The position numbers and the translations under genes are program-made. The notes below the pieces were generated by a model. It saw nothing but the letters and a program-made list of their open reading frames with translations. It made no database searches and had not been told where the DNA came from. Below, in pieces: positions 2,004 to 31,491 of a stretch of DNA of 32,378 nt. Source of the DNA: a virus; IMG/VR virus record IMGVR_UViG_3300035209_000033, positions 1-32,378 of that record; one strand, given 5' to 3'. How positions within the stretch are numbered: position 1 is the first letter of the stretch; every line of letters starts with the position of its first letter.

Positions 2004-2168
2004 TTATAACCGACCAACAAGTTTACCGCCAGAACGCCTATATCTTACATGGGTAGTTTTAACATCCTCTTCCATCTCTTCCGCAATTTCCCGGAATTTT
2101 TTATGATATTTTTCCCGGAGAATTTTTACTTTTGTATCTTTTTCATAGTTTGGTTTTGGCCCCCTCAT
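2004..2168 (-). CDS. Small helix-turn-helix protein, 54 aa
   Basis: I place the start at ATG 2168 rather than at an upstream TTG, because a strong promoter (CTTTAT, 15 bases, GATAAT) ends nine bases before that ATG. The product begins MRGPKPNYEKDT and contains a helix-turn-helix-like core (ILREKYHKKFREIAEEM then EDVKTTHVRYRR) resembling sigma-70 region 4 or transposase/resolvase-type HTH. It is very basic. The gene follows the recombinase stop after a short gap but has its own promoter. It could be a repressor, recombination directionality factor or minimal sigma-like factor; sequence does not decide. A strong terminator follows about 200 bases downstream. Confidence 0.6.
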   Translation of the reverse strand: MRGPKPNYEKDTKVKILREKYHKKFREIAEEMEEDVKTTHVRYRRSGGKLVGRL

Positions 2169-2177
2169 GTCTAGAAT

Positions 2178-2204
2178 ATTATCATATTTCGCCAACAAAT
2201 AAAG
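2178..2204 (-). promoter_or_regulatory. Phage promoter C, leaderless type, for the HTH gene
   Basis: Minus strand: CTTTAT (2204-2199, within AAAACTTTATTT), 15-base spacer, GATAAT (2183-2178), then nine bases to ATG 2168. It shares a 12-base upstream block and the -10 box with the promoters at 6165-6192 and 9567-9594. Confidence 0.65.
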
Positions 2205-2207
2205 TTT

Positions 2208-3104
2208 TTATGCCGGACTGCAAACAAAATTATTTGTATAATTTCTAGCTGTTGCCTCCCTGGTCTGCGAAGCGGTGATCGCTGTGTAATGTTTCATAGT
2301 TGTCTTTGGGTCTTTATGTCGTAGAAATTCTTGCACGCTTTTTATATCTGTTTCGAGTAAAAGATTTGTACCACATGTTTTACGGATAATATGGTGAGCG
2401 CACTTCTTGGGTAGATTTAGGGGCTTTACTTTGGTTCGGATGTACCCTTTTGAGGAAGAAGGAAGAAGCCGACCACGCCCCGAGACAAAAAGCGCTGGAC
2501 AGTCGTCAGTTCTTTTTGAGAGATAAAATTTTATCCAGTATAAAGAATTTTCCGGACAAGTAGCTTCCTGTTCACTGCCGAATTTATCCCGAAAAGAAAA
2601 CTTGCCAGTTTCAAGATTTAAGTTCGCTTTGTCTATCGAGCACACTTCCCCGATACGCAAGGCGGTGCCCATCATAAACTCAATCAATGCCCGGGTCCGC
2701 ACGCCGGCAAGTGTCCCGAGATCAAAAGCATTTCGTACTCTCGTTAATTCTTCCGGTGTCAGATATTCAATTTTTTTATCGGGGACAAATGGGATTTTTA
2801 TTTTCCTATAATTAAACATCACGCGCTCCCCTCGCCTGGTCTCTGCATAATCGAGCAACTGGCGGAAATATAAAACCGACCTTTGCGCTCCAAACATCCC
2901 ATGCTTCACACCAGCTTCCCGGACTGCGACAATATCGTATTCTGTGAGCTGAGAGACTTCTTTTTCTCCGACCGACTGAAATATTGCCCCGGTCAAAAAT
3001 CTCTTTTTCTCATAGAGAGTCTTTGCCGTATTCCCCATATTTCTAAAACCTCCGAACGCCGCGCAATACATCAGATACCCATCAAACAATTCTTTTATTT
3101 TCAT
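2208..3104 (-). CDS. int: Tyrosine recombinase / integrase (298 aa)
   Basis: The full catalytic set is visible: Arg150 (TALRIGEV), His238 and Arg241 (HHIIRKT), His263 (LRHKD) and nucleophile Tyr273 (KHYTA). An N-terminal SAM-like core-binding region occupies about residues 1-105. It cuts and rejoins DNA at paired att or core sites through a 3'-phosphotyrosine. Length is typical of compact phage integrases and XerC/D. ATG 3104 is immediately preceded by an intrinsic terminator and a dyad-rich leader with no Shine-Dalgarno, so expression may depend on readthrough or antitermination. It is one of two tyrosine recombinases here and differs strongly from the one at 6197-7009. Which one integrates the phage and which resolves multimers or acts at another site is unknown. 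Confidence 0.9.
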   Translation of the reverse strand: MKIKELFDGYLMYCAAFGGFRNMGNTAKTLYEKKRFLTGAIFQSVGEKEVSQLTEYDIVAVREAGVKHGMFGAQRSVLYFRQLLDYAETRRGERVMFNYRKIKIPFVPDKKIEYLTPEELTRVRNAFDLGTLAGVRTRALIEFMMGTALRIGEVCSIDKANLNLETGKFSFRDKFGSEQEATCPENSLYWIKFYLSKRTDDCPALFVSGRGRLLPSSSKGYIRTKVKPLNLPKKCAHHIIRKTCGTNLLLETDIKSVQEFLRHKDPKTTMKHYTAITASQTREATARNYTNNFVCSPA

Positions 3105-3105
3105 A

Positions 3106-3138
3106 ATAAACGAAAACCCTCCGAGGCTAATCGGAGGG
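3106..3138 (-). terminator. Intrinsic terminator/attenuator directly before the recombinase ATG
   Basis: Minus strand: CCCTCCGA and TCGGAGGG form a perfect 8-bp stem around TTAGCC (3138-3117), followed by TTTTCGTTTATT. The T tract ends a few bases before the recombinase ATG at 3104. A terminator here separates the leader from its gene, which suggests attenuation or protection from upstream readthrough. Confidence 0.7.
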
Positions 3139-3359
3139 CTTGCGCGTATATTGCTATACTAAGCGGAAAACCGCCTATGTATATTATACTACAAGTCCAC
3201 TGTTTAGCCTTAGCCATCTATGGCGCAACCTTTCGGTCAGTGGTTTATATTAATTTATAACAAGAATGACACTATACTATTCTTGAAATTTGTCAATATA
3301 AAATTTCCATAACTAAAAATTGCGGGGGTTTCTAAAAAAATATTTCTAATAATAAAAAT

Positions 3360-3379
3360 ACCGCTCGACAAGCGGTTTT
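3360..3379. terminator. Bidirectional intrinsic terminator
   Basis: ACCGCT and AGCGGT form a 6-bp stem around CGACA. Plus strand continues TTTTAATC; minus strand continues ATTTTTATT. On the minus strand it would end transcripts from the zinc-ribbon gene. Confidence 0.55.
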
Positions 3380-3463
3380 AATCATTATATGAAATCAAAA
3401 AATAGAGATTTTTATTTTATCTAATAAACCTGTGTAGAATTTGTGCAGAACTTTTTAATTAGT

Positions 3464-3495
3464 AACGGCACAATTTTGGGGTTGTGCCGTTTTTT
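3464..3495 (+). terminator. Strong plus-strand intrinsic terminator
   Basis: AACGGCACAA and TTGTGCCGTT form a perfect 10-bp stem around an 8-base loop, followed on the plus strand by a run of six T residues. The minus strand has no T run. No plus-strand gene is visible upstream, so it implies a plus-strand transcript of unknown nature or insulation against antisense transcription. Confidence 0.7.
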
Positions 3496-3542
3496 ACCGG
3501 ATGGGAGCGCCGGCGCGCGATTTAGGTAGGAGAGAGGCGGAG

Positions 3543-3758
3543 TTAACTGCGAGGACGAGCGGAGATCTGCACGAGTGGCTGATTCTTCAAGTGAACGCAC
3601 TTGATTCGGCGGCAGTACCGTCTGACTTTCTGCTTACCGAATGTGGGCTTGTGAAGTTCGCACCAGTATAGAGTGCTGTTGAGAATGGGCATACTGCTCC
3701 TTGTATTGGTGAGATTCTTGATTGCGACAAACGTACGCTCTAATACTTTCTCCCTCAA
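3543..3758 (-). other. Overlapping +1 frame of the zinc-ribbon gene, possible frameshifted C-terminus
   Basis: This frame overlaps the 3634-3828 gene in the +1 register and continues 91 bases further, ending TAA at 3543. It has no good start of its own (TTG, no Shine-Dalgarno). Its peptide carries a second set of metal-type residues (WCELH followed by RRYCRRIKCVH), so joining the two frames would give a protein with CxxC...C then CxxH...CxxxC. This suggests a frameshift, either programmed, mutational or a sequencing error, somewhere between about 3710 and 3755. It could also be a chance open frame. Confidence 0.3.
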
Positions 3759-3828
3759 AGAGAAAGTGGAGTGTCTCCTTTAGGCAGACCTCGCAGAAAC
3801 GGAATGTGTGTCCGTAGTATTTCTCCAT
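3634..3828 (-). CDS. Small zinc-ribbon-like protein, 64 aa
   Basis: ATG 3828 has one of the few clear Shine-Dalgarno sequences in the window (AAGGAG four bases upstream), so translation start is well supported. The N-terminus (MEKYYGHTFRFCEVC) has a CxxC knuckle and a third Cys at YVC, the usual start of a zinc ribbon, but the fourth ligand is missing in this frame and the C-terminal third looks unstructured. The overlapping +1 frame supplies extra Cys/His, so the true product may be longer through a frameshift. A promoter-like CTTTAT/GATTAA pair (3885-3860) lies upstream. Function is unknown; small zinc ribbons in phages often bind nucleic acid or host polymerase. Confidence 0.5.
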   Translation of the reverse strand: MEKYYGHTFRFCEVCLKETLHFLFEGESIRAYVCRNQESHQYKEQYAHSQQHSILVRTSQAHIR

Positions 3829-3859
3829 ATTCTCCTTTGAAGGACTTATTTATTAAATT

Positions 3860-3885
3860 TTAATCCCCTCTTTTTTGAAATAAAG
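3860..3885 (-). promoter_or_regulatory. Promoter-like element D before the zinc-ribbon gene
   Basis: Minus strand: CTTTAT (3885-3880, within GACTTTATTT) directly after the stop of the 3886-4092 gene, then a 14-base spacer and GATTAA (3865-3860). The upstream box matches promoters A-C, the -10 is weaker. Predicted leader is about 25 bases and contains the Shine-Dalgarno. Confidence 0.4.
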
Positions 3886-4092
3886 TCAATCTGTTAATCC
3901 ATAGAATTTTTGACACTGCCAAAATAAATATCTTGTATCAGTTTGATTTCCGTGAATTTTATTTGCTTCTTCCGCTGAGGCTTTTATACAAAATTTCGTT
4001 ATGTGATATGGACGATATGAATACCAATAAAAAGCAATACCTGCTACTAAAATTATAAAAATAATCCACCAATACCTTTTTATTTTTTCCAT
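3886..4092 (-). CDS. Small membrane-anchored protein with conserved-looking Cys pair, 68 aa
   Basis: After a short basic start (MEKIKRY) a single transmembrane helix spans about residues 8-26 (WWIIFIILVAGIAFYWYSY), followed by an RP motif and a short outside domain with two Cys (FCIKASAEEA and FWQCQKFYGL). This one-helix, RP, C...C layout closely resembles small proteins common in Patescibacteria genomes; that is recall, not a search. In this lysis-distal position it might be a spanin-like, exclusion or envelope-stress protein. The two Cys could form a disulphide outside the membrane. ATG 4092 lies 22 bases after the SLT gene stop, without a good Shine-Dalgarno. Confidence 0.7.
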   Translation of the reverse strand: MEKIKRYWWIIFIILVAGIAFYWYSYRPYHITKFCIKASAEEANKIHGNQTDTRYLFWQCQKFYGLTD

Positions 4093-4114
4093 AGATATAT
4101 GCTACCACCCTAAA

Positions 4115-4564
4115 TTACAAACTGCAAATAACAGTAAAATGTTTTTTTAGCAGTTTTGAATAAAAAGAATATTCACCTCCATTGGTAATGGCCACGTAGG
4201 TACTCCAAGCCTTTCGATAATTTTCACCTTGAGAAAAACTCCACACCGCAAGTTTAATGTTGTCGTGGTAACTTTCATAATCCAACAGCTCGCCAAATTC
4301 TTTACTCCATTTTTCAAATGTTCCTTTATGAAATTGAAAAACAGAATAAGCTAGACCACCGTCTCCGGATAAATCTTTCTCATACTTGCTTTCACACTCT
4401 GCAACTTTTTTAAGAAGTTCCGGATCTTGGTTGTATATGGTAGCGTAATGTTCTATAAGTTCCGGGACCGAATATTCTTCTAACGGTCTTATATAGTTTT
4501 CAGGTTTTACACTGGATGTCGATAGGGATATTCCCAAAAACATTGTCGCCAATGTTGTTAACAT
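4115..4564 (-). CDS. Exported SLT-type lytic transglycosylase / lysozyme
   Basis: A short hydrophobic start (MLTTLATMFLGISLSTSS) looks like an export or anchor signal. The remaining 130 residues form a compact lysozyme-like domain: the catalytic Glu58 lies in AECESKYEKD, followed by GDGGLAYSVFQFHKGTF and a C-terminal KLAVWSFSQGENYRKAW helix. It would cleave the MurNAc-GlcNAc bond of peptidoglycan. The GDGGLA/FQFH pattern resembles SLT proteins of Patescibacteria. It sits right after the holin candidate and the papain-like endolysin, completing a three-gene lysis cassette. A GCCGG/CCGGC hairpin (about 4565-4589) ends directly before the ATG and no Shine-Dalgarno is seen. Confidence 0.8.
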   Translation of the reverse strand: MLTTLATMFLGISLSTSSVKPENYIRPLEEYSVPELIEHYATIYNQDPELLKKVAECESKYEKDLSGDGGLAYSVFQFHKGTFEKWSKEFGELLDYESYHDNIKLAVWSFSQGENYRKAWSTYVAITNGGEYSFYSKLLKKHFTVICSL

Positions 4565-4595
4565 AGTAGCCGGTTAAGCCGGCCGGACTATAAAA

Positions 4596-4787
4596 TTAAC
4601 TTGTCGACTCCGCCTTCGTACCCGTCAATTTGTCATAGAAAGCAAAAGCAACAAATCCTACTCCACCCAAGACTACTATCAACCAATCTGTAAAAGTTTT
4701 TGGTTGTGTAGAAACTATTAAAGTCTTCAAACCTGTTGCGACCACTCCCAATAACGATACATACCCAATTAAATCTGTTTTTGACAT
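4596..4787 (-). CDS. Holin candidate, two-span membrane protein, 63 aa
   Basis: Two hydrophobic helices (about residues 6-26, LIGYVSLLGVVATGLKTLIV, and 34-52, WLIVVLGGVGFVAFAFY) are joined by a short polar loop and followed by a charged tail ending KAESTS. Size, two-span topology and position between two cell-wall hydrolases fit a class II holin that permeabilises the inner membrane. No sequence motif proves it. ATG 4787 follows an AT-rich stretch; TAATAA seven bases upstream could be a leaderless -10 box. Confidence 0.65.
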   Translation of the reverse strand: MSKTDLIGYVSLLGVVATGLKTLIVSTQPKTFTDWLIVVLGGVGFVAFAFYDKLTGTKAESTS

Positions 4788-4828
4788 ATTTTTTTTATTA
4801 AACTAATAATCCAAAGCGGGAATATATG

Positions 4829-4865
4829 CCGGACACTAAATCAAATATTTTATTTTAGTGTCCGG
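4829..4865. other. 12-bp perfect inverted repeat over the endolysin stop codon
   Basis: CCGGACACTAAA (4829-4840) and TTTAGTGTCCGG (4854-4865) pair perfectly around a 13-base AT-rich loop. The stop codon of the endolysin (4838-4836) lies in one arm. No T tract follows on either strand, so it is not a standard terminator. It may stabilise or process mRNA between endolysin and holin, or be a protein-binding dyad. Confidence 0.55.
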
Positions 4866-6158
4866 AGATATATTTAAATATTGAGCCACAAATTCTGCAT
4901 AGTGGCGACTATTGTTTCCGTCCGAATCGGGAGCGTATACCGCATAAAATTGATATAAATCTCCGTTAGAATTATAAAGACTCGATTGCCCTGTGCATGC
5001 TTTAATAATAAGATTTCGCAAGGCGGTATATCCGTGTTCATAGGTATCAAATTTACAGAAGCCTTTATCATTGACTGCATATTGTTGATTTCTAAAACGC
5101 AAATTACCGGGATTATTTCTCTCGGGTTTTGCTCCCTCCATTTGTTTAATTGCCGCGCACCAGAGATCTAGTTTAGATGTTTTTCCATTTAATGACTCTC
5201 GCATCTTAGGACCGACAATACCGTCTACTATGAGCGAGTGCGCGGACTGATATATCATTACCGCCTGTTTGGTTCCGTCTCCAAAAATACCATCAGCTTT
5301 TATATTTAATCTCTCTTGAAGTTTCTGCACTTCATATCCACGCGAACCTTTACGTAAAGTATTTACAAAATAATAAGGTTGCTTTTTTGCATTGTCTAAA
5401 ATCTCTTGCGGAATATCCGTGAAAGCAATGATGTCAAAAATATTGTCGGCATAGTCAGACCAAAGCATTTCAAAATGTCCGGCTTTAGTGTTTGAATTTA
5501 TTATTCCGGCAATTCTTCCAATCCAGGATATACCCCAACTATTTTGTCCAATGATTATACCGGGAATTTTCCTGAAACCGTGCAGTACCACATAATGTCG
5601 TCCGATAGATTTTAATATTTTTGTGATAAATCCGATAAACCAATTTGCATCCACTCCGAAAGATGCCGTGATAGCTTTATTTTGATATATTGCCTGGCAA
5701 ATACTCTCATAATCAGCCGGTACGAAGGCATATCCACCCATCTTATGAGTCAAACGACTGGCATTGATAGTTTCTAAATTCCCAGTATTAAACGCATCTA
5801 CAGAGGCAATACCAGTGTTGCAGGCAATTTTTGCTCCTATAGTGGGATAGGTTCCGGCAATATCCGGTATACCGTCTATTTTCTTGCATTCGGCATAGAG
5901 ATCATCATCGGACAAATCAACAATTATTCCGTGCTGTTTAAAATACAATTCTGCAACCTTACTGATTCCAGCTGGTACGCATTTGGGTTTATTCTTTTGA
6001 TCTTCCACCGGTGGCATATCCGTTTCATATATATCTGGTAGAACTACTGGCGCTTGAAAAGAAGCAATGGAAATATTGCGAATATCAATAGGGCTTTCTT
6101 CAGCTCCTAGGGTATATTTAGGCCCGGGATGGAATAGATTTCTTAAGAAATTCCACAT
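4836..6158 (-). CDS. Modular endolysin: papain-like protease, peptidoglycan-binding domain, C-terminal NNPGNLRF domain
   Basis: Three modules are visible in 440 residues. Residues about 48-255 are a papain (C1) fold with oxyanion Gln54, catalytic Cys60 (KPKCVPAG), His188 (GRHYVVLHGF) and Asn206 (GQNSWG). Residues about 270-325 are a PG_binding_1 domain (KGSRGYEVQKLQ, DGIFGDGTKQAV, VDGIVGPK). Residues about 330-440 contain RNNPGNLRF and Y.HGYTALRNLI, a lysozyme-like/virion wall-hydrolase pattern. It probably binds peptidoglycan and cuts both peptide and glycan bonds. There is no signal peptide, so release would need the adjacent holin candidate; the start resembles MWNFLRNLF amphipathic helices. 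It is driven by leaderless promoter A. A papain domain in a phage lysis enzyme is unusual; it could instead process virion proteins. Confidence 0.8.
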   Translation of the reverse strand: MWNFLRNLFHPGPKYTLGAEESPIDIRNISIASFQAPVVLPDIYETDMPPVEDQKNKPKCVPAGISKVAELYFKQHGIIVDLSDDDLYAECKKIDGIPDIAGTYPTIGAKIACNTGIASVDAFNTGNLETINASRLTHKMGGYAFVPADYESICQAIYQNKAITASFGVDANWFIGFITKILKSIGRHYVVLHGFRKIPGIIIGQNSWGISWIGRIAGIINSNTKAGHFEMLWSDYADNIFDIIAFTDIPQEILDNAKKQPYYFVNTLRKGSRGYEVQKLQERLNIKADGIFGDGTKQAVMIYQSAHSLIVDGIVGPKMRESLNGKTSKLDLWCAAIKQMEGAKPERNNPGNLRFRNQQYAVNDKGFCKFDTYEHGYTALRNLIIKACTGQSSLYNSNGDLYQFYAVYAPDSDGNNSRHYAEFVAQYLNISPDTKIKYLI

Positions 6159-6164
6159 AGGCTA

Positions 6165-6192
6165 ATTATCCCACCTGTCAAGAAAAATAAAG
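6165..6192 (-). promoter_or_regulatory. Phage promoter A, leaderless type, for the lysis cassette
   Basis: Minus strand: CTTTAT (6192-6187, within AAAACTTTATTT), 16-base spacer, GATAAT (6170-6165), then only six bases to ATG 6158. Transcription would start at or next to the start codon, leaving no room for a Shine-Dalgarno. Confidence 0.7.
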
Positions 6193-6196
6193 TTTT

Positions 6197-7009
6197 CTAG
6201 ATGTAGCTTGGGACAAATTTTTGAAACTGATTTTTCTCAATAAATACAATAGAATTTATGTAGTGGAGGGTGGTTTCTACGAGACTATGCCGTAATTGTT
6301 GTTTTAAGGTCATAATGTTCGCGCCTCGCAATAAAAGATTCACGGAAAGTGAATGTCTCAATAAATGTGGATATACCCGCTTGGTAATTTCTGCCCGACG
6401 TGCCAGGACTTTAACTAATTTACGGATGTCACCAGTCGCCATATTGTGCTTTTTGACTAAAGTGGTGAAAAAAAATTCATCTTGTCCTCTTGGAAATGCC
6501 TCTAAATATTTCATCAAAATTTCCGTGCATTCCGGAGAGATCTCAGATAATCCATCTTTCAACCCCTTGCCTTTAATTATTCTAACCGCATTTTGCGTTG
6601 GCAGAAAATCACGAACTCGCAGAGAACACAATTCTAAATTTCTGATTCCACTATATGCCAAGAGTGTAACTATTGCTTTCTCCCTAATATTTTTTGCATT
6701 GAATATTAATTTTGTTACTTCCGCTTCAGTTAGAGTATTTTTGATAATTTGTTTTGGTTTTTTCTGTCGGCCTAAATGAAGCGGTCGGCCAAGAAATTCA
6801 GAGTAACGTTCAATTGCCAAAACACTATTGGTTTTATGGGCATAAGAATAAGAGGAAGTATAAAGCATGTACACATATCCCTTTATTTTCTCCTCGGTTG
6901 GTTCATAGCCAATGACCTTGGCCATTCTTTTTACCGAGCCAACATACCCTAAAATAGTAATCGCCTGCAAACCTTTCTCCACTACCAAAAACTGCTCGAA
7001 CTTTTCCAT
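6197..7009 (-). CDS. Second tyrosine recombinase (270 aa, XerC/D-like)
   Basis: Catalytic residues are all present: Arg123 (YSGIRNLEL), a beta-hairpin Lys near 146-151 (IKGKGLK), His215 and Arg218 (HLLRHS), His241 (LRHS) and nucleophile Tyr250 (LHYIN). Residues 1-85 form the core-binding SAM-like domain. The short length and lack of an arm-binding domain match Xer or simple phage integrases. It lies between fibre and lysis genes, far from the first recombinase. A 12-7-12 base dyad of the size of a recombinase core site lies 38-68 bases upstream. Possible jobs are integration, genome-multimer resolution or inversion/exchange of neighbouring fibre DNA; sequence alone does not decide. Confidence 0.9.
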   Translation of the reverse strand: MEKFEQFLVVEKGLQAITILGYVGSVKRMAKVIGYEPTEEKIKGYVYMLYTSSYSYAHKTNSVLAIERYSEFLGRPLHLGRQKKPKQIIKNTLTEAEVTKLIFNAKNIREKAIVTLLAYSGIRNLELCSLRVRDFLPTQNAVRIIKGKGLKDGLSEISPECTEILMKYLEAFPRGQDEFFFTTLVKKHNMATGDIRKLVKVLARRAEITKRVYPHLLRHSLSVNLLLRGANIMTLKQQLRHSLVETTLHYINSIVFIEKNQFQKFVPSYI

Positions 7010-7046
7010 AATTTTGTACGAAAAAATTACTTATAATAACGCGGAA

Positions 7047-7077
7047 GGGCGACACCAGTTCGTACCTGATGTCGCCC
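7047..7077. other. 12-bp inverted arms around a 7-base spacer, candidate recombinase core site
   Basis: Arms GGGCGACACCAG (7047-7058) and CTGATGTCGCCC (7066-7077) are inverted repeats with a single mismatch (a wobble on the minus strand), around TTCGTAC. This is the size of loxP/dif-type core sites, and it lies just upstream of a tyrosine recombinase. A second dyad, CTCCC/GGGAG (7087-7100), is adjacent. As RNA the minus strand forms a 12-bp hairpin but no T run follows directly, so a terminator is less likely; an mRNA processing or translation-control hairpin is the main alternative. Confidence 0.45.
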
Positions 7078-7120
7078 AAGTTGCCCCTCCCCGACGGGAG
7101 AACCGCTTATTTAGAGTATA

Positions 7121-7453
7121 TCAATTAATTCCTATTTTTTCTACTGGCAATTTTTTAATTAAAATTTGTCTTGCTTGTAATTTTTCTTCTTTCATTTGGG
7201 CAAGCGTATCGGCAATTTCTGCATTGTCGTCCGCTTCCTGTTGATTGAAAGCAAGTTGCTGAATATACATAACAATATTTCTACCGACACATTCTTCCGC
7301 TGATTCGGGATTATTTATCATTATATTGTCAGTTGGATCAGTTTCAGGGTCGGGTATTTGTTCTTCCCATCCGAAGTTTCTGGCCACTAAAGTTATAAAT
7401 GTAGAATCCGCATCTACCTGTAATTCTTTTATTTTTTCTGTTATTTTATCCAT
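7121..7453 (-). CDS. Unknown acidic protein after the fibre gene, 110 aa
   Basis: The 110-residue acidic protein begins MDKITEKIKELQVDADSTFI, has a Pro/Asp-rich middle (PDPETDPTDN), and ends in a helical segment (ADTLAQMKEEKLQARQILIKKL). It follows the signal-peptide fibre gene by 23 bases. Its position suggests a fibre-assembly chaperone or small fibre-associated protein, but no family motif is recognised. No membrane segment or Shine-Dalgarno is visible. Tandem hairpins lie after its stop. Confidence 0.65.
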   Translation of the reverse strand: MDKITEKIKELQVDADSTFITLVARNFGWEEQIPDPETDPTDNIMINNPESAEECVGRNIVMYIQQLAFNQQEADDNAEIADTLAQMKEEKLQARQILIKKLPVEKIGIN

Positions 7454-7476
7454 TTTATTTAATTAAAATAATAATA

Positions 7477-8865
7477 CTATAACTGTGTTATTGCATTTCT
7501 CGATAAATTCTCTATGGTATATTCCAATTTCTCAGTTGCGATCGTCGCCAAACTAGAATTTGCATTTAAGGAAATGGTAACCTTTCCGGTCCCTGCGGTG
7601 ATCGCCCAAGTTGTCGTCAATGTTCCACCCGAAAGATAAGTTACTGGACTAATAACTTCCGTGATGGTTCCGGCAATACTTCCGTTCTCATTGTGAGTTT
7701 CATATTTTACTTCGCCGACATAGGACTGGACTTTATGGTTTGTTGTATCAACAACATTTACAGAAAATTTAATTATTCCACCGCCCGCCGTATCTGTTCC
7801 GGTTGCCACTTCAAAAAGATTAGTTGCAGAATTGTTTGTCAGATTTACTTGGCTTGGAATTATTACTCGATCAGCCAAAGTGTTGTCAGCTGTAGCCGTA
7901 GATGCCGCGCGAGAAAGAGATGTCAGACGAATAGAGGAAAAGCCCATACCGGTTGAAAGTCCTGGTGAAAGGGTAAACATTCCCGAGTTTTTATCCGTAG
8001 CGGCCACTGTAGCCCCACCAGATTGCAGGGTGAGGTTGTTGCCTGCCGTATTAGCCGTAGTGTGCCTCTCCATCCATACAGTTCTAGCAGCATTACCCCC
8101 GAAACTTAGGATATTGGTTGGCGACGTAGTAGCTATCCCGACGTTGCCAGACCCTAGTATGGTCATTGCTGGAGTCAAGGTCTGCAAAGTTGAGCCAGTT
8201 GTCAGTGTTCTACCTGTTTGAAAGATGATAGAAGATGCCCCTGTGCCTTTGCCTAGTCCAGAGTTGAGAGTCAAATTACCTCCTGCCATATCTGCTGTGC
8301 CTGCCGTCACTGTTGATCCTGCGGAAATAGTCAATGCGCGCCCGACAACAGTATTTGCAGTTGAAGCAATATTGAAATTTCTGGCGGCAGTATTATCCCA
8401 CTGTAAATCTGCATTCATGGCGACACTTGCCAAATTATCAAGAGCAGGCGATGCTTTTCCATTCCAAGTCCCCTTTTCTGTGTCAGAAACGAACCGATAT
8501 GTCGCTGATTGAGTTACTTTTGACGGATCAAGCGAACTCGCACTCGTTAAGTATCCGGCTGATGCGTGATTTCCCCAGCCATAGGCTGTATTCCAATTTG
8601 CGGAATTGTTTGTTATCGAGGTACTCCAAGCAGATCCGGTTGAAAGCGGAATGCCGGCACCCGGGTAAGTCATAGCAGCTCCTGGACTATCAAATGTATA
8701 AGTAAGAGGCGAATTATTGGAAACTTTTAAATATTTTCCAACATCTCCGGCCGTAGCGGTTCCCTTTCCGGTTCCTCCTTGATTTGGAAAAAGAATTGTC
8801 GCTCCATAAACAGTACTACTAAAAAACAAGATTCCTAAAACAACTGTATAAATTATTTTTTTCAT
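7477..8865 (-). CDS. Fibre-like protein with N-terminal signal peptide
   Basis: The 462 residues start with a typical export signal (MKKIIYTVVLGILFF, cleavage likely after VYGA at about 22), then FPNQGGTGKGTATAGDVGKYL, the GGTGxG fibre motif, and WNTAYGWGNHASAGYL, a repeat seen in many phage fibre/tail-collar proteins. The middle (about 150-330) is Thr/Gly/Ala-rich beta structure with repeated SxGxGxGxSSI-like turns, and the C-terminus is beta-rich. It probably forms a trimeric receptor-binding or surface fibre. A Sec signal on a virion fibre is unexpected; it may be exported by the host to the cell surface, or the hydrophobic start may anchor it. It is cotranscribed with the collagen-like gene from promoter B. 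Confidence 0.65.
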   Translation of the reverse strand: MKKIIYTVVLGILFFSSTVYGATILFPNQGGTGKGTATAGDVGKYLKVSNNSPLTYTFDSPGAAMTYPGAGIPLSTGSAWSTSITNNSANWNTAYGWGNHASAGYLTSASSLDPSKVTQSATYRFVSDTEKGTWNGKASPALDNLASVAMNADLQWDNTAARNFNIASTANTVVGRALTISAGSTVTAGTADMAGGNLTLNSGLGKGTGASSIIFQTGRTLTTGSTLQTLTPAMTILGSGNVGIATTSPTNILSFGGNAARTVWMERHTTANTAGNNLTLQSGGATVAATDKNSGMFTLSPGLSTGMGFSSIRLTSLSRAASTATADNTLADRVIIPSQVNLTNNSATNLFEVATGTDTAGGGIIKFSVNVVDTTNHKVQSYVGEVKYETHNENGSIAGTITEVISPVTYLSGGTLTTTWAITAGTGKVTISLNANSSLATIATEKLEYTIENLSRNAITQL

Positions 8866-8870
8866 TTTTT

Positions 8871-9560
8871 TTAATTTATTCTATAATCTGCTAATAATAT
8901 TTCACCTACTTGCAAAGCATCATTAAGCGCAAAATTCTTTGGACCCGTTATTGTATAATCTTCAGTCACTCTTATTCTCGAACCCCCTTTATATAATTTT
9001 AGAGAACCTTTGGAGAAAATTCTTTTTACTGTGAAATTTATGCCATCTCCACTATCCTGTGGCGTTTCATCATCAATGAATTTAACTTGACTGGCTTTTG
9101 AATTGTGCACGCTTCCTTTCATATATCCGTCTTTTTCTGCCGGTTGATTATTTTTCTTGGATAACCCTTCCAATATTTTCGCCAGTCCATCAATAGCTTG
9201 AATTGATAATTTTTCACCAGGCAAAAGAGATTCCAATTTATCTCTTATTTGCTGCGCGGTTTCTGGTATGGCCACTTCTTTAACAATAGGTTTTTCTATT
9301 ACTTTTTCTAGTACCGGCACTTCTATTTTTGATGCAATTTCTTTTTTATCTTTTTGGGTTAAAACATAATTCTCCCCGGGATCTCCTTGCTCTCCTGGTA
9401 CTGGGTCTGGAATGAGGGGTTCTATTAAAGAAAGCAATTCTTCTTTAGTTGGAGAATCTCCTTTGTCTCCCTTTATAGTCAAAACTTCCACGCCCTCAAT
9501 TTTTATTTTTTGAGCTGGTGGTTCGGGAATCGGATCGGGTTTTTTGAAGGATTTTATCAT
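8871..9560 (-). CDS. Collagen-like and coiled fibre linker protein, 229 aa
   Basis: The protein has short collagen-type runs (KGDKGDS and PGEQGDPGEN), a KDKKEIASKI helix, a Val/Glu/Lys-rich repeated stretch (VLEKVIEKPIVKEVA), a helical EQ-type region, and a C-terminal beta domain (about 150-229: FTVKRIFSKGSLKLYKGGSRI). This is the build of a trimeric tail-fibre shaft plus tip. ATG 9560 is fixed by leaderless promoter B, whose -10 ends six bases upstream. It immediately follows the giant 1872-residue gene but starts a new transcription unit with the downstream fibre gene. Confidence 0.7.
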   Translation of the reverse strand: MIKSFKKPDPIPEPPAQKIKIEGVEVLTIKGDKGDSPTKEELLSLIEPLIPDPVPGEQGDPGENYVLTQKDKKEIASKIEVPVLEKVIEKPIVKEVAIPETAQQIRDKLESLLPGEKLSIQAIDGLAKILEGLSKKNNQPAEKDGYMKGSVHNSKASQVKFIDDETPQDSGDGINFTVKRIFSKGSLKLYKGGSRIRVTEDYTITGPKNFALNDALQVGEILLADYRIN

Positions 9561-9566
9561 ATGTTA

Positions 9567-9594
9567 ATTATCTCATTAGGCATAATAAATAAAG
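9567..9594 (-). promoter_or_regulatory. Phage promoter B, leaderless type, for the fibre genes
   Basis: Minus strand: CTTTAT (9594-9589, within AAAACTTTATTT), 16-base spacer, GATAAT (9572-9567), six bases to ATG 9560. The upstream box starts just after the stop of the 1872-residue gene. Same layout as promoters A and C. Confidence 0.7.
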
Positions 9595-12500: not shown

Positions 12501-15215
12501 TGGATGCTCTTTTAATCGCTCGCGTACGTTCTCAAGTTGGGCTTTTACACCATCTAGTTTTGCCTGGTCTTGAGGCGCATACACTTTTTCTTTTGGTGGA
12601 GTTGGAACCTTTGACGGAGCATTTAATTTTTCCAAAGCAGTGTCTTGGTCTTTGGCACTTATCCAATCCCCTTTTTTGTTTTTATATTGGTAGACATCCG
12701 CATTACCCCGGCGGACTATTCTAATATCACCGTTGGTGATTGCCTGGTCTATTTTGGGTAGATTAGGGTCATTAATGGGTAGATTCTGATTTCTAGGACC
12801 AAACACTTCCCCTGCCTTAGCTCTCTCAGCGGCAAGATTAACCTGTTCTGATTTTGTGGGTTGTGTATTTTGAATAGGAGTAGTCTGTCTATATTCTGAA
12901 AAATGTTTATTTATTGCATTTTCTACAACCGGTTTTATTGCCTTATCAAAAATATCTTTATTCCAATATCCCTCTCGATCAAAATAACCTAACTGTCCTT
13001 TTTTAATGGCAACATATTCTTCAATCATCCTAGCTGTTACTTCTACATTGGATTTCCAATATTTTGCGCCACGAGTATAATATCCATTTACAAAACGATT
13101 AAAATCATTTTTTCTTGCATATAAAAATTCTGTATCAAAAAGTTTATTTTTTAATTTAAAATCCAAAGCATGGCCAAGTTCGTGAGCCATTGTAGTATTG
13201 ACTGTTTTTCTAACTTTTTTTCCATCAATAATTTCATCGAATGATTCAACCCCTCCAACAGAAATACTCACACTGTCTTTTCCTAGACGATAAAGACCAG
13301 CGGTCATCTTCATTAAAAATGGATTTTTCCCATTCAAGTGAACATAAACCCACCTTTCATTTTCAGCGAGTTTTTTCATATCAATACCCAATTCATTTGC
13401 GAAATCAATTACGCCGTTTTTGATCTCTGCTTTTTGTACATCTGTAATAGGCTTACCGTCCTGTCTTTTCATTCCGGCCCCAATTTTATCCATATCTTCA
13501 AAAACTATCCTTGAATCATCCGAACTAAAAGAAGTCCTCAGCCCTTTTTCATATCTCTCTCTATTATCAACAGCAGTTTGAAAAGACTTATCATAATCCA
13601 AAACAGCCTGGGGATATTTATATCCTTTGCTTATATCTTTTTTCACAAGGTCTTTATATTCAGTTTCTACTTTGCTTCTATAATTTTGTTCTTTTTCCGG
13701 AGTCCATTTTACCCGATCTGCTTTTTGTAAAAACTGATCTCTCATATCCGTTAAGCTTTTAGGATTAATTGCGTAACTTTTAAGACCGCTGTATTTGTAA
13801 AAATCATCTAGGAGTCCGGGATATTTTTTAAGATTTTCTTCGGTTCTAAGTGGAATTTTCTCTCCGTATTTCTGTATCAAGCCATTCAATCCGTCTACTG
13901 CTTTTAACCAGCTGGCGGAATTATTATTAGCCACTGTTTTTGCTTTTTCAATTAAAGAAGAAATACCCTGCTCTGGACTTAATTGTTGGTGCGCTACTCG
14001 ATCTGGCGCAATTCTTTTTGCTCCAACTGCTTTTGCTTCTGTTTGAACACTTATTTCTTGAGGTAATGTTTCTGGAACATTTTCTCCAAATCCCACTGGT
14101 TCACCTTTGATATTTATTCCCCCCGCTTCGGCGGTTCGTCTGTATCCGGGAAGTTCGTATTGTTTGTTTAAATTCGGGATTGTATGAAATGGTAAATTAT
14201 CTCCGAGTGAAGAAATTGGAGCCGTGAAAGCATCCGCTATTTTTCTCGCAAATTCTCCAAAGAAAGTAGGTTGAGGTTTTGGCATTCCATAATAACTGCC
14301 GACTGTGGCTACATCTCTCCCTAAGGCATCCATTTGCACGGTTACGCTTTTTGGTAGTGGTATTTTTTCTTTTATTGCAGACGTATATGGCTCCAATATT
14401 TGCCCAGCTTTTATATTTGCTTGTTTTATTACCAAATTTCTCGCTTGCTGTCCTTCTAAAATTTGCGCTTCAGTTGGGTTTATTTCCAGGTTGGAAAGAG
14501 CATCCAATTGCGCTCGGTTGAATCCTGTTTGTTTTAAAATATTGGTAGCAGTTTTTGTAAATGCTAGTCCTACATCTGCCACAGCCGTTGCCGGCATGAC
14601 CACATTAAAGAAAGCGGAGGACACTCCGTGCGCGAGGGATCTCGGATTCATAGAATCAGCCGATTTGTCCGCCGGAATACCGGAAGCAATATCCGCTTTT
14701 ACCCATTGATCTAGATAGTCCTGCCCCCAGGTTTGCAGTTCTTTTTGTCCTTCTTCTCCGCCGGCTCCGGTTAATCTTCCGGCATCGATGCCGAAGGGAG
14801 TCACAATTTTCTGATTTGGAAAAGCTACGGCCACTACTTTTGGAATAAGTCCGGCAAAAAATTCCGGTGTTCTATTAAAAATATTGAAAAGCATTTCCTC
14901 TGATTTCGTTCCTTGGGTTATTGTGGCTTCACTTGGCTTGGTGAAAGCCGGTTGAATCTGCACCGGTTGCTGTTTAAAGAAAAAATCAGAAACTTGCCTT
15001 ACTATATTTGTTTTAGGTTGCTCAAAAGATAATGGTTTATATTCTGGTGCATGGTATTCCGGCAAGTTTAATTTTTCCGCAATCGCTTGTGGAGTAAAAA
15101 AAGACAGGATTTTTGGCTTCAGCGGAGTAACAGAAAGTGGTGCGCCGGTTGGCGTAGGATAAAAAGGTGTTGGAATTGGTTCTCCGGTTTTAGTTGGGTA
15201 GAAAGGTGTTATCAT
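9597..15215 (-). CDS. Giant internal/ejection-type protein with zincin metallopeptidase motif, 1872 aa
   Basis: The protein begins with proline-rich FYPTxTG repeats. A metallopeptidase motif HELGH lies at about 678-682 (TMAHELGHALDF), preceded by a beta-rich region and followed by VEVTARMIEEYV, a likely third-ligand helix. This layout matches zincin domains in phage polyvalent proteins that are co-injected with DNA. Residues about 830-1130 are charged helical/coiled; about 1130-1300 is a folded region (KYLPHVYEN, LGHYEKLLLRTAAARTF); about 1585-1605 is hydrophobic (LLAGLVVAFGAYNLI). The C-terminus has two copies of a VQQLIKEG...LALVKDFT helical repeat. It is the largest gene, sits after the other tail/ejection genes, and is probably packaged in the particle. 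Alternative: a tape-measure-like protein, but it lacks long coiled-coil periodicity. Confidence 0.7.
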   Translation of the reverse strand: MITPFYPTKTGEPIPTPFYPTPTGAPLSVTPLKPKILSFFTPQAIAEKLNLPEYHAPEYKPLSFEQPKTNIVRQVSDFFFKQQPVQIQPAFTKPSEATITQGTKSEEMLFNIFNRTPEFFAGLIPKVVAVAFPNQKIVTPFGIDAGRLTGAGGEEGQKELQTWGQDYLDQWVKADIASGIPADKSADSMNPRSLAHGVSSAFFNVVMPATAVADVGLAFTKTATNILKQTGFNRAQLDALSNLEINPTEAQILEGQQARNLVIKQANIKAGQILEPYTSAIKEKIPLPKSVTVQMDALGRDVATVGSYYGMPKPQPTFFGEFARKIADAFTAPISSLGDNLPFHTIPNLNKQYELPGYRRTAEAGGINIKGEPVGFGENVPETLPQEISVQTEAKAVGAKRIAPDRVAHQQLSPEQGISSLIEKAKTVANNNSASWLKAVDGLNGLIQKYGEKIPLRTEENLKKYPGLLDDFYKYSGLKSYAINPKSLTDMRDQFLQKADRVKWTPEKEQNYRSKVETEYKDLVKKDISKGYKYPQAVLDYDKSFQTAVDNRERYEKGLRTSFSSDDSRIVFEDMDKIGAGMKRQDGKPITDVQKAEIKNGVIDFANELGIDMKKLAENERWVYVHLNGKNPFLMKMTAGLYRLGKDSVSISVGGVESFDEIIDGKKVRKTVNTTMAHELGHALDFKLKNKLFDTEFLYARKNDFNRFVNGYYTRGAKYWKSNVEVTARMIEEYVAIKKGQLGYFDREGYWNKDIFDKAIKPVVENAINKHFSEYRQTTPIQNTQPTKSEQVNLAAERAKAGEVFGPRNQNLPINDPNLPKIDQAITNGDIRIVRRGNADVYQYKNKKGDWISAKDQDTALEKLNAPSKVPTPPKEKVYAPQDQAKLDGVKAQLENVRERLKEHPAVQGIKIKKLVKDPITGEVTEKVTEKNLLDFINQRTGQFEDFKNPNLAETPAEAEKIKAKNALITRTTENAFDSNPELSSKFDNPDTLREVIADYKNTRDVEKTLVSMRNDLEQNLVPLQTPEEIAKQTLRNEKDIAIEARRKKLEAAQKKVNEAEAQKQDKIAKLETERLKPNTGRKLNTLNPKSSLDPETQKIFEKFSRTMNEAKIVGLKYANQMPEIDKLGAKAFYQFEDGVAPFQWEIRQKFDNLYRYARQNGFDELGYEDKYLPHVYENTDAQIKAASERYLEKQGMTPPEIKAYMEGKKLSPDQSMHLKLNPFFIENRLFKTYQEAAEFGLSPRFQKMSDLLGHYEKLLLRTAAARTFIEDLSDAGKIAVEQAAPNTWQPIKYGPQGIKGYWASPKIGNFLDGIFRGHENMGMTDTIMSAVAEASRFGQNIALSAGIPYTPVNFFTAGQIMKEVTRGNLKTFKDFIISTSDKATVKSLQNDYKYIEMMARNGIPFRTVAGVVKDNFETIKTKWGKLATGVKQSPLKPSSYSPFFEIVGQSMDNVFGKKTFENFMPLLNVQIFKGAYTNLIKQGVADELAQVTATRMTMVIMGITEDLGRSALTQDKLTAVFFAPVYRESIVNVLLNIPKAMNPVTRTLVPKEKKLGQRSQEQKWQYQYHFFEQDSNIRNPMYRYSRHLLAGLVVAFGAYNLINKKLTGHYTWENPQGHEADIMIPLPNGQIAYFPFMPGFLAMPRSIIGGTKGILAGDVNQAFEQYGSVFSMVVKTGVDVLTNTNYFGDNIYQPTDLRAVKIEKVAKYVGLEFNHAYVKELINQLTDNPKPLYQSIIIASELPIKFTTQAKIDQGKFYDLLDKNSQANKIAQEPVQKIYDKVQQLIKEGGHKDEILALVKDFTPDQIDIYKNIISGEKTKTTTANEQRLLPIAEKVQQLIKEGKKAEVLALVKDFTDEDKKAFKLIIKKLQ

Positions 15216-27487: not shown

Positions 27488-27520
27488 TATATAATCACAG
27501 GGAAACTATCAATTCCCCTG
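27488..27520 (-). promoter_or_regulatory. Candidate promoter plus hairpin before the scaffold gene
   Basis: TATATA (27493-27488) lies six bases before ATG 27481, the geometry of promoters A and B. TTGATA upstream (13-15 bases, depending on the -10 register) may be the -35. It lies in the loop of a CAGGG/CCCTG hairpin (27498-27520), so folding and promoter overlap. No CTTTAT box, so the class differs. Confidence 0.4.
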
Positions 27521-30890: not shown

Positions 30891-30919
30891 ATAAAAATCC
30901 GCCTTGACCAAAGCGGATT
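30891..30919 (-). terminator. Intrinsic terminator just inside the transcript from promoter E
   Basis: Minus strand: AATCCGC (30919-30913) and GCGGATT (30902-30896) form a 7-bp stem around a 10-base loop, followed by TTTATTT. It begins about six bases after the predicted start of promoter E, so it may attenuate the downstream gene or release a very short RNA. Confidence 0.6.
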
Positions 30920-30931
30920 ATGTGCAAACTA

Positions 30932-30959
30932 ATTTTACTGCCTATTTAAAAAAATAAAG
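30932..30959 (-). promoter_or_regulatory. Promoter-like element E
   Basis: Minus strand: CTTTAT (30959-30954, within GACTTTATTT), 16-base spacer, TAAAAT (30937-30932). The same upstream box and spacing as promoters A and B, but here the gene is about 65 bases downstream, behind a terminator-like hairpin. Confidence 0.5.
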
Positions 30960-31008: not shown

Positions 31009-31479
31009 CTATTTAGATAGACTTGCCGCCATATTCCAAGCAAGATGTAAAATTACAGGCACAGATAAGGCGAGTATATAATAAATAATTTTTAGAAATA
31101 AATATTTTGTTTTCTTAGCTAAGTAGAAAAAATATCCCATGATAAGTCCAAGCACAATATGAACCCAAACAATGATTATATTTTTATCTGTAAAATCTTT
31201 GCGATTTATAAAATAGACAAGTTGCTCCATAAAGCCGAAACCTAGTCCAATAAATGGAACTGCGGAAGAAGTGAAGTAGACAAATCGTATCAGTAGAAAT
31301 GCAGCAGTAAATTTCAAAATCTCTTCAATCCAGGGACCGTATGTTGTTGCACTGTAGGGTAATGATAATTTGTCATTAGAAAAATAAAAATGGTACATTA
31401 AAATAATAATACAGGTCAAACTTATTCCAACACATAGAGACACTGCCACTTGCAACCAATTCTTTTTTAACATAAGCAT
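31009..31479 (-). CDS. PrsW-like intramembrane metalloprotease, 156 aa
   Basis: The protein has about five membrane helices and the PrsW-type motif set: E52-E53-x-x-K56 (PWIEEILKF), E85 in GLGFGFMEQLVYF, H107 (VWVHIVLGLIMGYFF) and H145...N149 (ILHLAWNM). Together these can form the metal site of glutamic/zinc intramembrane proteases of the PrsW/CPBP superfamily. It is shorter than typical PrsW, a minimal core. It lies between terL and the head genes with its own leaderless-type -10 (TATAAT, six bases before ATG). It may cleave a host anti-sigma factor, bacteriocin-type peptide or receptor, or act in immunity. Catalysis is inferred from motifs. Confidence 0.75.
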   Translation of the reverse strand: MLMLKKNWLQVAVSLCVGISLTCIIILMYHFYFSNDKLSLPYSATTYGPWIEEILKFTAAFLLIRFVYFTSSAVPFIGLGFGFMEQLVYFINRKDFTDKNIIIVWVHIVLGLIMGYFFYLAKKTKYLFLKIIYYILALSVPVILHLAWNMAASLSK

Positions 31480-31485
31480 AAATAA

Positions 31486-31491
31486 ATTATA
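31486..31491 (-). promoter_or_regulatory. TATAAT box, leaderless geometry, before the PrsW-like gene
   Basis: A perfect TATAAT (31491-31486) starts four bases after the terL stop and ends six bases before ATG 31479. ACTTT occurs further upstream but with a shorter spacing than in promoters A-C. Confidence 0.45.

Follow-up and report, generated by a model that had tools for sequence, protein, structure and literature searches.

Several described systems place the start signals of transcription and translation unusually close together or replace the promoter's upstream element by a box of their own. Leaderless (TA-led) bacterial genes have a TANNNT motif about 12 bp ahead of their start codons (Zheng et al. 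2011, PMC3160421); candidate phyla are not mentioned in that paper, to judge from a word search. The middle promoters of phage T4 work by sigma appropriation and carry a MotA box (WWWTGCTTtA) 12±1 bp from the -10 box and centred at -30 (PMC2988021). The stoperators of Cluster A mycobacteriophages occur in one predominant orientation, with phage-specific motifs (PMC6550527). Here we examine a putative promoter class, built on a repeated box containing CTTTAT, in the phage contig IMGVR_UViG_3300035209_000033 (IMG/VR; here G000), which was analysed over its whole length of 32,378 bases and is called the window below.

We consider it likely that five sites in the window form one class of phage promoters, in which a host-type -10 box ([GT]A[TA]AAT, retained at all five) is kept and the place of the usual -35 hexamer, TTGACA, is taken by a lineage-specific box, (A/G)ACTTTATTT in G000 and GGGTTTATT in its sister phage G002, that would probably be read by a phage-encoded factor. 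The genes behind the promoters (lysis, fibre, small helix-turn-helix (HTH), unknown-gene and portal/capsid units) suggest a late class. Sigma-70-type initiation begins about 7 bases past the -10 box, so that where the -10 ends six bases ahead of an ATG, +1 would fall on the A of that ATG: RNA polymerase would begin at, or 1-2 bases from, the start codon, the mRNA would be leaderless, and the gap of 36-38 bases would act as promoter and translation start signal together.

Results

A repeated box at the -35 position

CTTTAT followed after 15 or 16 bases by GATAAT occurs at three exact sites in the window (promoters 1, 3 and 4 in Table 1), all on the minus strand and each containing AAAACTTTATTT; the coordinates given in the initial annotation were exact, as were the spacers (15, 16 and 16 bases) and the distances from GATAAT to the ATG (9, 6 and 6 bases). 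Only 0.05 such sites are expected and none of 100 shuffles reached three, which answers the concern that the motif might be as frequent in shuffled sequence. With the wider pattern, ACTTTATTT followed after 15-17 bases by [GT]A[TA]AAT, all five intergenic coding-strand copies of the box qualify and none is found on the opposite strand (0.004 expected in noncoding shuffles); the spacers measure 15, 17, 16, 16 and 16 bases, and the -10 boxes read GATAAT three times and TAAAAT twice. The two sites that had been described as having weaker -10 boxes (promoters 2 and 5) are better than described, with TAAAAT after N17 and N16, but neither is leaderless.

The box is also recovered by an unbiased search for 8-mers that recur in different intergenic regions and stand 20-27 bases ahead of a -10-like hexamer: CTTTATTT ranks first, in five of 17 intergenic regions, against a maximum of three in 1000 simulations. 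By chance a -10 would stand in such an interval at 1.6-1.9% of noncoding positions; it stands there at 5/5 boxes in G000 and 4/4 in G002 (9/9 together). At the -35 position itself the window promoters have ACTTTA/CTTTAT and lack TTGACA, so that they are not canonical sigma-70 promoters in this element; promoter 5 was not among the promoters listed by a consensus scan, and Rfam gave no match. Two other origins of the repeats were considered and rejected. CTTTATTT as a terminator tail is argued against by the fixed spacing to the -10 at all five sites (the flanks of sites 1-4 were judged by eye), and a duplicated segment or an integrase-adjacent recombination site as the source of the copies was rejected because the copies have only the two boxes in common, with spacers of different sequence and length.

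By predicted leader, two of the promoters are exactly leaderless (lysis and fibre, six bases), one has a 3-nt leader (the HTH gene) and two have real leaders, since a 28-base leader containing a Shine-Dalgarno motif comes after promoter 2 and a terminator-like hairpin after promoter 5. The start codon thus lies at the predicted transcription start for the lysis and fibre genes and nearly so for the HTH gene, but not at promoters 2 and 5.

The sister phage and other relatives

The nearest relative, G002, shares an integrase 1 that is 80% identical and a portal that is 74% identical. The same rule-based search in this phage returns GGGTTTATT. Its four copies all lie in gaps and on the coding strand, and they are followed by TATCAT, TATAAT, TATAAT and TAAAAT. 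The counterpart of promoter 1, GTTTAT-N17-TATCAT-N6-ATG, lies between integrase 1 and a small HTH gene; another box (at 14436) comes after the terminase gene, in the neighbourhood of window promoter 5, and an open reading frame (ORF) of 86 amino acids (aa) begins eight bases past its -10. Two of the four G002 sites are therefore at places corresponding to window sites, and the phage G001 also has a promoter at the place of promoter 5. The place and plan of the promoters are thus kept between G000 and G002, and the letters of the box change. Searches with integrase 1 for more sister phages found only G002, and searches with integrase 2 found no additional box carriers; in G007 a different gene comes after integrase 2. 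Repeats of CTAAGTCC in G004, examined as a third box, turned out to be longer repeated leaders.

Leaderless geometry in the phage family and the host phylum

A portal-profile scan of viral contigs confirmed 141 relatives and 80 of these were retained; the family statistics below come from 82 related phage contigs, which are not fully independent of one another. Relatives were also found in seven contigs of metagenome-assembled genomes (MAGs), five of them labelled Patescibacteria (Parcubacteria, Kerfeldbacteria, Nealsonbacteria, Gracilibacteria and one unnamed) and two labelled Verrucomicrobiota and Bacteroidia; host labels of MAGs can be wrong. Because five of the seven carry Patescibacteria labels, the host of G000 is likely, although not proven, to belong to this phylum of tiny, mostly uncultured bacteria.

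The counts cover 711 starts that have 25 or more bases of noncoding DNA ahead of them. Exact TATAAT lies six bases from the ATG at 23 of these starts, against about one at any other position, and the loose form [TG]A[TA]AAT at 32 against a background of 2.9 (30 against 2.8 when the window is left out). No peak appears in unrelated AT-rich viral contigs (1 against 0.88 at six bases) or, at 6-8 bases, for the shape control ATNNNT, although the counts of some further A/T words increase close to starts as well. An SD-like (Shine-Dalgarno-like) 4-mer precedes only 1/38 starts with the six-base geometry, against 111/673 of the others, and the geometry is commonest in gaps of 30-40 bases (14/77), just enough for a promoter. 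The observation that most genes here lack a Shine-Dalgarno motif extends to the family, in which 0.10-0.16 of starts have one against 0.39 in unrelated viral contigs. These counts support statistically that leaderless geometry is common in the phage family.

At several such starts (in G001 and four further contigs, L283, L299, L301 and L271) TTGAC(A/G/T) lies 17-18 bases further upstream. In the host phylum, TTGACA-N16..18-TATAAT-N6-ATG is found in 126/380 genomes, against 57/380 for the same pattern with N10 (Fisher p ~6e-9); at the level of bacterial orders, the one to which G021 belongs shows the six-base signal, which is not clear in that of G018. A literature search found no publication on leaderless genes in Patescibacteria, and as most subscription journals lay outside it, this is not proof of novelty.

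The helix-turn-helix protein as a candidate factor

A small HTH gene sits behind a box promoter in both G000 and G002. Its products (54 aa in the window, 45 aa in G002) are 35% identical while the adjoining integrase is 80% identical, so that box and HTH protein both diverge between the sister phages. On these grounds the 54-aa protein is a candidate for the factor that binds the box, unproven and at this stage a guess. An AlphaFold2 (AF2) model shows a tri-helical HTH (pLDDT 80), for which the top Foldseek rows are largely region 4 of extracytoplasmic function (ECF) sigma factors, with probabilities of 0.97-1.00, yet all with E>0.5 and over short matches; the match to PDB 2h27 (E. coli sigmaE) has TMq 0.71 and a root-mean-square deviation of 1.1 over 40 columns, also with E>0.5. 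The protein thus resembles ECF sigma region 4, but it is free-standing, has 54 aa and lacks region 2, and other HTH families match as well or better by VIA-align, which ranks DeoR/SorC-type HTH proteins above sigma region 4; the NCBIfam SigX match is weak (E=0.042). Given the Foldseek E-values and the VIA-align ranking, a sigma-like role is only one possibility, and a function as excisionase or repressor would be just as plausible. The -35 element of sigmaE is GGAACTT, with which AACTTT in the window box has letters in common. A fuller scheme, in which the free-standing HTH protein would act as a detached sigma region 4, supply the -35 contact on late promoters, be made from its own box promoter and co-vary with the box between the sisters, with leaderless lysis and fibre mRNAs, is one that we regard as doubtful.

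Weighing the explanations

The CTTTAT box had been taken to suggest a host-specific or phage-specific sigma preference. The host-specific half of that suggestion was not supported: the window motif is at chance level in 120 Patescibacteria genomes from two orders, no hexamer is more enriched than TTGACA at the -35 position in the family contigs, and genomes of the phylum show TTGACA-TATAAT promoters. The phage-specific half is supported by G002, whose box is a variant of its own. It is accordingly quite improbable that the sites are ordinary host sigma-70 promoters reflecting a CTTTAT-like -35 preference of the host lineage, with no phage factor involved: the -10 boxes are host-like, the spacing is promoter-like and the host is only likely to be one of the Patescibacteria, but the preference is seen neither in the genomes nor in the family, and the sister phage uses other letters. 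Nor is the motif a general phage promoter: when 2.9 million viral contigs were scanned, 90 stretches matched, 68 of the 80 that were examined lay inside ORFs, and none of these 80 had a start codon 6-9 bases later.

An asymmetric box (9-12 bases) that occurs in one orientation, between genes, with sister-specific letters, and that adjoins an HTH gene behind an integrase, could also be an operator at which a lysogeny repressor acts, or a roadblock of the stoperator kind to which a phage repressor binds. The resemblance to the stoperators of mycobacteriophages lies in this asymmetry, orientation and phage-specific lettering; however, all nine boxes have a -10 at promoter spacing where about 2% would be expected, which a pure roadblock does not need and which sets them apart from promoter-free stoperators. 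As the promoters lack TTGACA, the box itself occupies the -35 position, although an operator overlapping the -35 is compatible with this; we hold the operator explanation to be unlikely. That the -10/ATG geometry arises by chance from AT-rich gaps, with translation guided by an unrecognised signal other than Shine-Dalgarno on leadered mRNAs, is very improbable: the noncoding DNA is indeed AT-rich and other A/T words rise near starts, but the family peak stands at one exact distance and is absent from both the ATNNNT control and the unrelated AT-rich contigs.

As in TA-led genes, the -10 of the phage family ends six bases from the ATG at a single-distance peak without Shine-Dalgarno motifs; unlike them, the signal is here found in a Patescibacteria-linked phage family and is coupled, in the window, to a box that is specific to the phage and takes the -35 position. 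As in T4 middle promoters, the host -10 is kept and the -35 replaced by a phage-specific box, and the MotA box also has a CTTTA core, but CTTTAT lies 15-17 bp from the -10, about four bases off the strict MotA spacing, and we therefore do not file the class as MotA promoters. No relative of MotA or AsiA was found among the annotated proteins examined, in a contig that is incomplete and with many proteins unmatched. The general plan of an activator box in place of the -35 with a host-like -10 is seen at every G000 and G002 site.

Several points count against the proposed class, and the Foldseek and VIA-align results leave its DNA-binding factor a guess. Among the phages of the family the box was found only in G000 and G002, and its distance to the -10 is about two bases longer in G002 than in G000. 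G002 has no promoter at the place that corresponds to the endolysin site, and exact leaderless geometry is confined to two of the five window promoters, while two others clearly lack it. All the evidence is statistical and drawn from sequence: it shows the repeated box, its constant distance to a -10, the bias in strand and towards gaps, the G002 variant and the family peak at six bases. The transcription starts are predicted from the -10 spacing, the phage factor and the late timing are likewise inferred, and the start codons throughout are ORF calls, not proteomics; as the contig is incomplete, the actual factor may lie outside it.

The promoters in their genomic setting

Nearly all genes of G000 are on the minus strand. 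They include a terminase fragment, an SU10-type portal and adaptor, a major head protein and tail/fibre genes, as well as a peptidoglycan (PG)-binding endolysin, two tyrosine recombinases and a replication-initiation-like gene.

Table 1. Positions of the box promoters, the genes behind them and related features in the window
Feature	Coordinates	Strand	Remarks
Box promoter 1	2178..2204	-	CTTTAT-N15-GATAAT; ATG (2168) 9 bases past -10, predicted leader ~3 nt
54-aa helix-turn-helix protein, candidate box-binding factor	2004..2168	-	Behind box promoter 1
Box promoter 2	3857..3885	-	CTTTAT-N17-TAAAAT; then 28-base leader with Shine-Dalgarno AAAGGAG
64-aa gene with Shine-Dalgarno, no Pfam match	3634..3828	-	Behind box promoter 2
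Box promoter 3	6165..6192	-	CTTTAT-N16-GATAAT, 6 bases ahead of ATG 6158; occupies whole 38-base gap after integrase 2
Endolysin-like lysis protein (PG_binding_1), predicted leaderless	4836..6158	-	Behind box promoter 3
Box promoter 4	9567..9594	-	CTTTAT-N16-GATAAT, 6 bases ahead of ATG 9560; occupies 36-base gap
Fibre-like protein, predicted leaderless	8871..9560	-	G007 homologue has sub-threshold collagen-repeat match
Box promoter 5	30932..30959	-	CTTTAT-N16-TAAAAT; upstream of portal/capsid unit; leader at least 20 bases, not leaderless
Terminator-like hairpin with T-rich tail	30896..30919	-	Directly downstream of box promoter 5
TATAAT, no CTTTAT box	31486..31491	-	6 bases ahead of ATG 31479, PrsW-like gene
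TATATA, weak, possibly chance	27488..27493	-	6 bases ahead of ATG 27481

The TATAAT and TATATA at the foot of Table 1, which had been listed with the box sites, do show the six-base geometry, but both lack the CTTTAT box. The gene behind the TATAAT (31009-31479, minus) resembles PrsW-family intramembrane proteases and lies between terminase and portal. The arrangement of promoter 5 and its hairpin recalls lambda-type late promoters, which have an early terminator, and makes antitermination at the portal/capsid promoter possible. The hairpin is kept in G001 (L040:11046-11071), and G007 has a weaker one. Copies of TTATCCACA, the DnaA-box consensus, stand just upstream of the post-terminase promoter in G001 and G002; the word is enriched in the noncoding DNA of the family (25 noncoding and 7 coding copies, against 2-3 noncoding for permuted words), with examples at G002 14424, G001 11132, G007 17323 and window 1997.

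The two tyrosine recombinases of the window (2208-3104 and 6197-7009, minus) are different, and the second lies within the lysis/fibre region. The 5' leader of this integrase 2 (window 7010-7120, minus) may fold into an RNA pseudoknot, in which a hairpin of 10-16 bp has a 6-7-nt loop that pairs with a strand 6-9 nt ahead of the ATG. The candidate is seen in five phages (G000, G002, G007, L327 and L330) and is absent in L331; both stems are kept though the letters differ between phages, shuffles match rarely (0-3/100), and Rfam gives no match. G002 also encodes a peptide deformylase (L031:10873-11343; Pfam E=1.6e-12) and a KH protein of the KhpA/KhpB type (L031:10585-10854; E=1.1e-15).

Conclusions

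The start signals for transcription and translation in Patescibacteria and their phages are almost unmapped, and few of these bacteria are culturable. If the proposed reading is true, the rule that the -10 lies six bases ahead of the ATG would help to correct gene starts in the phage family, leaderless expression would have evidence of being common there, and the sister pair with different boxes would allow a search for the matching DNA-binding factor.

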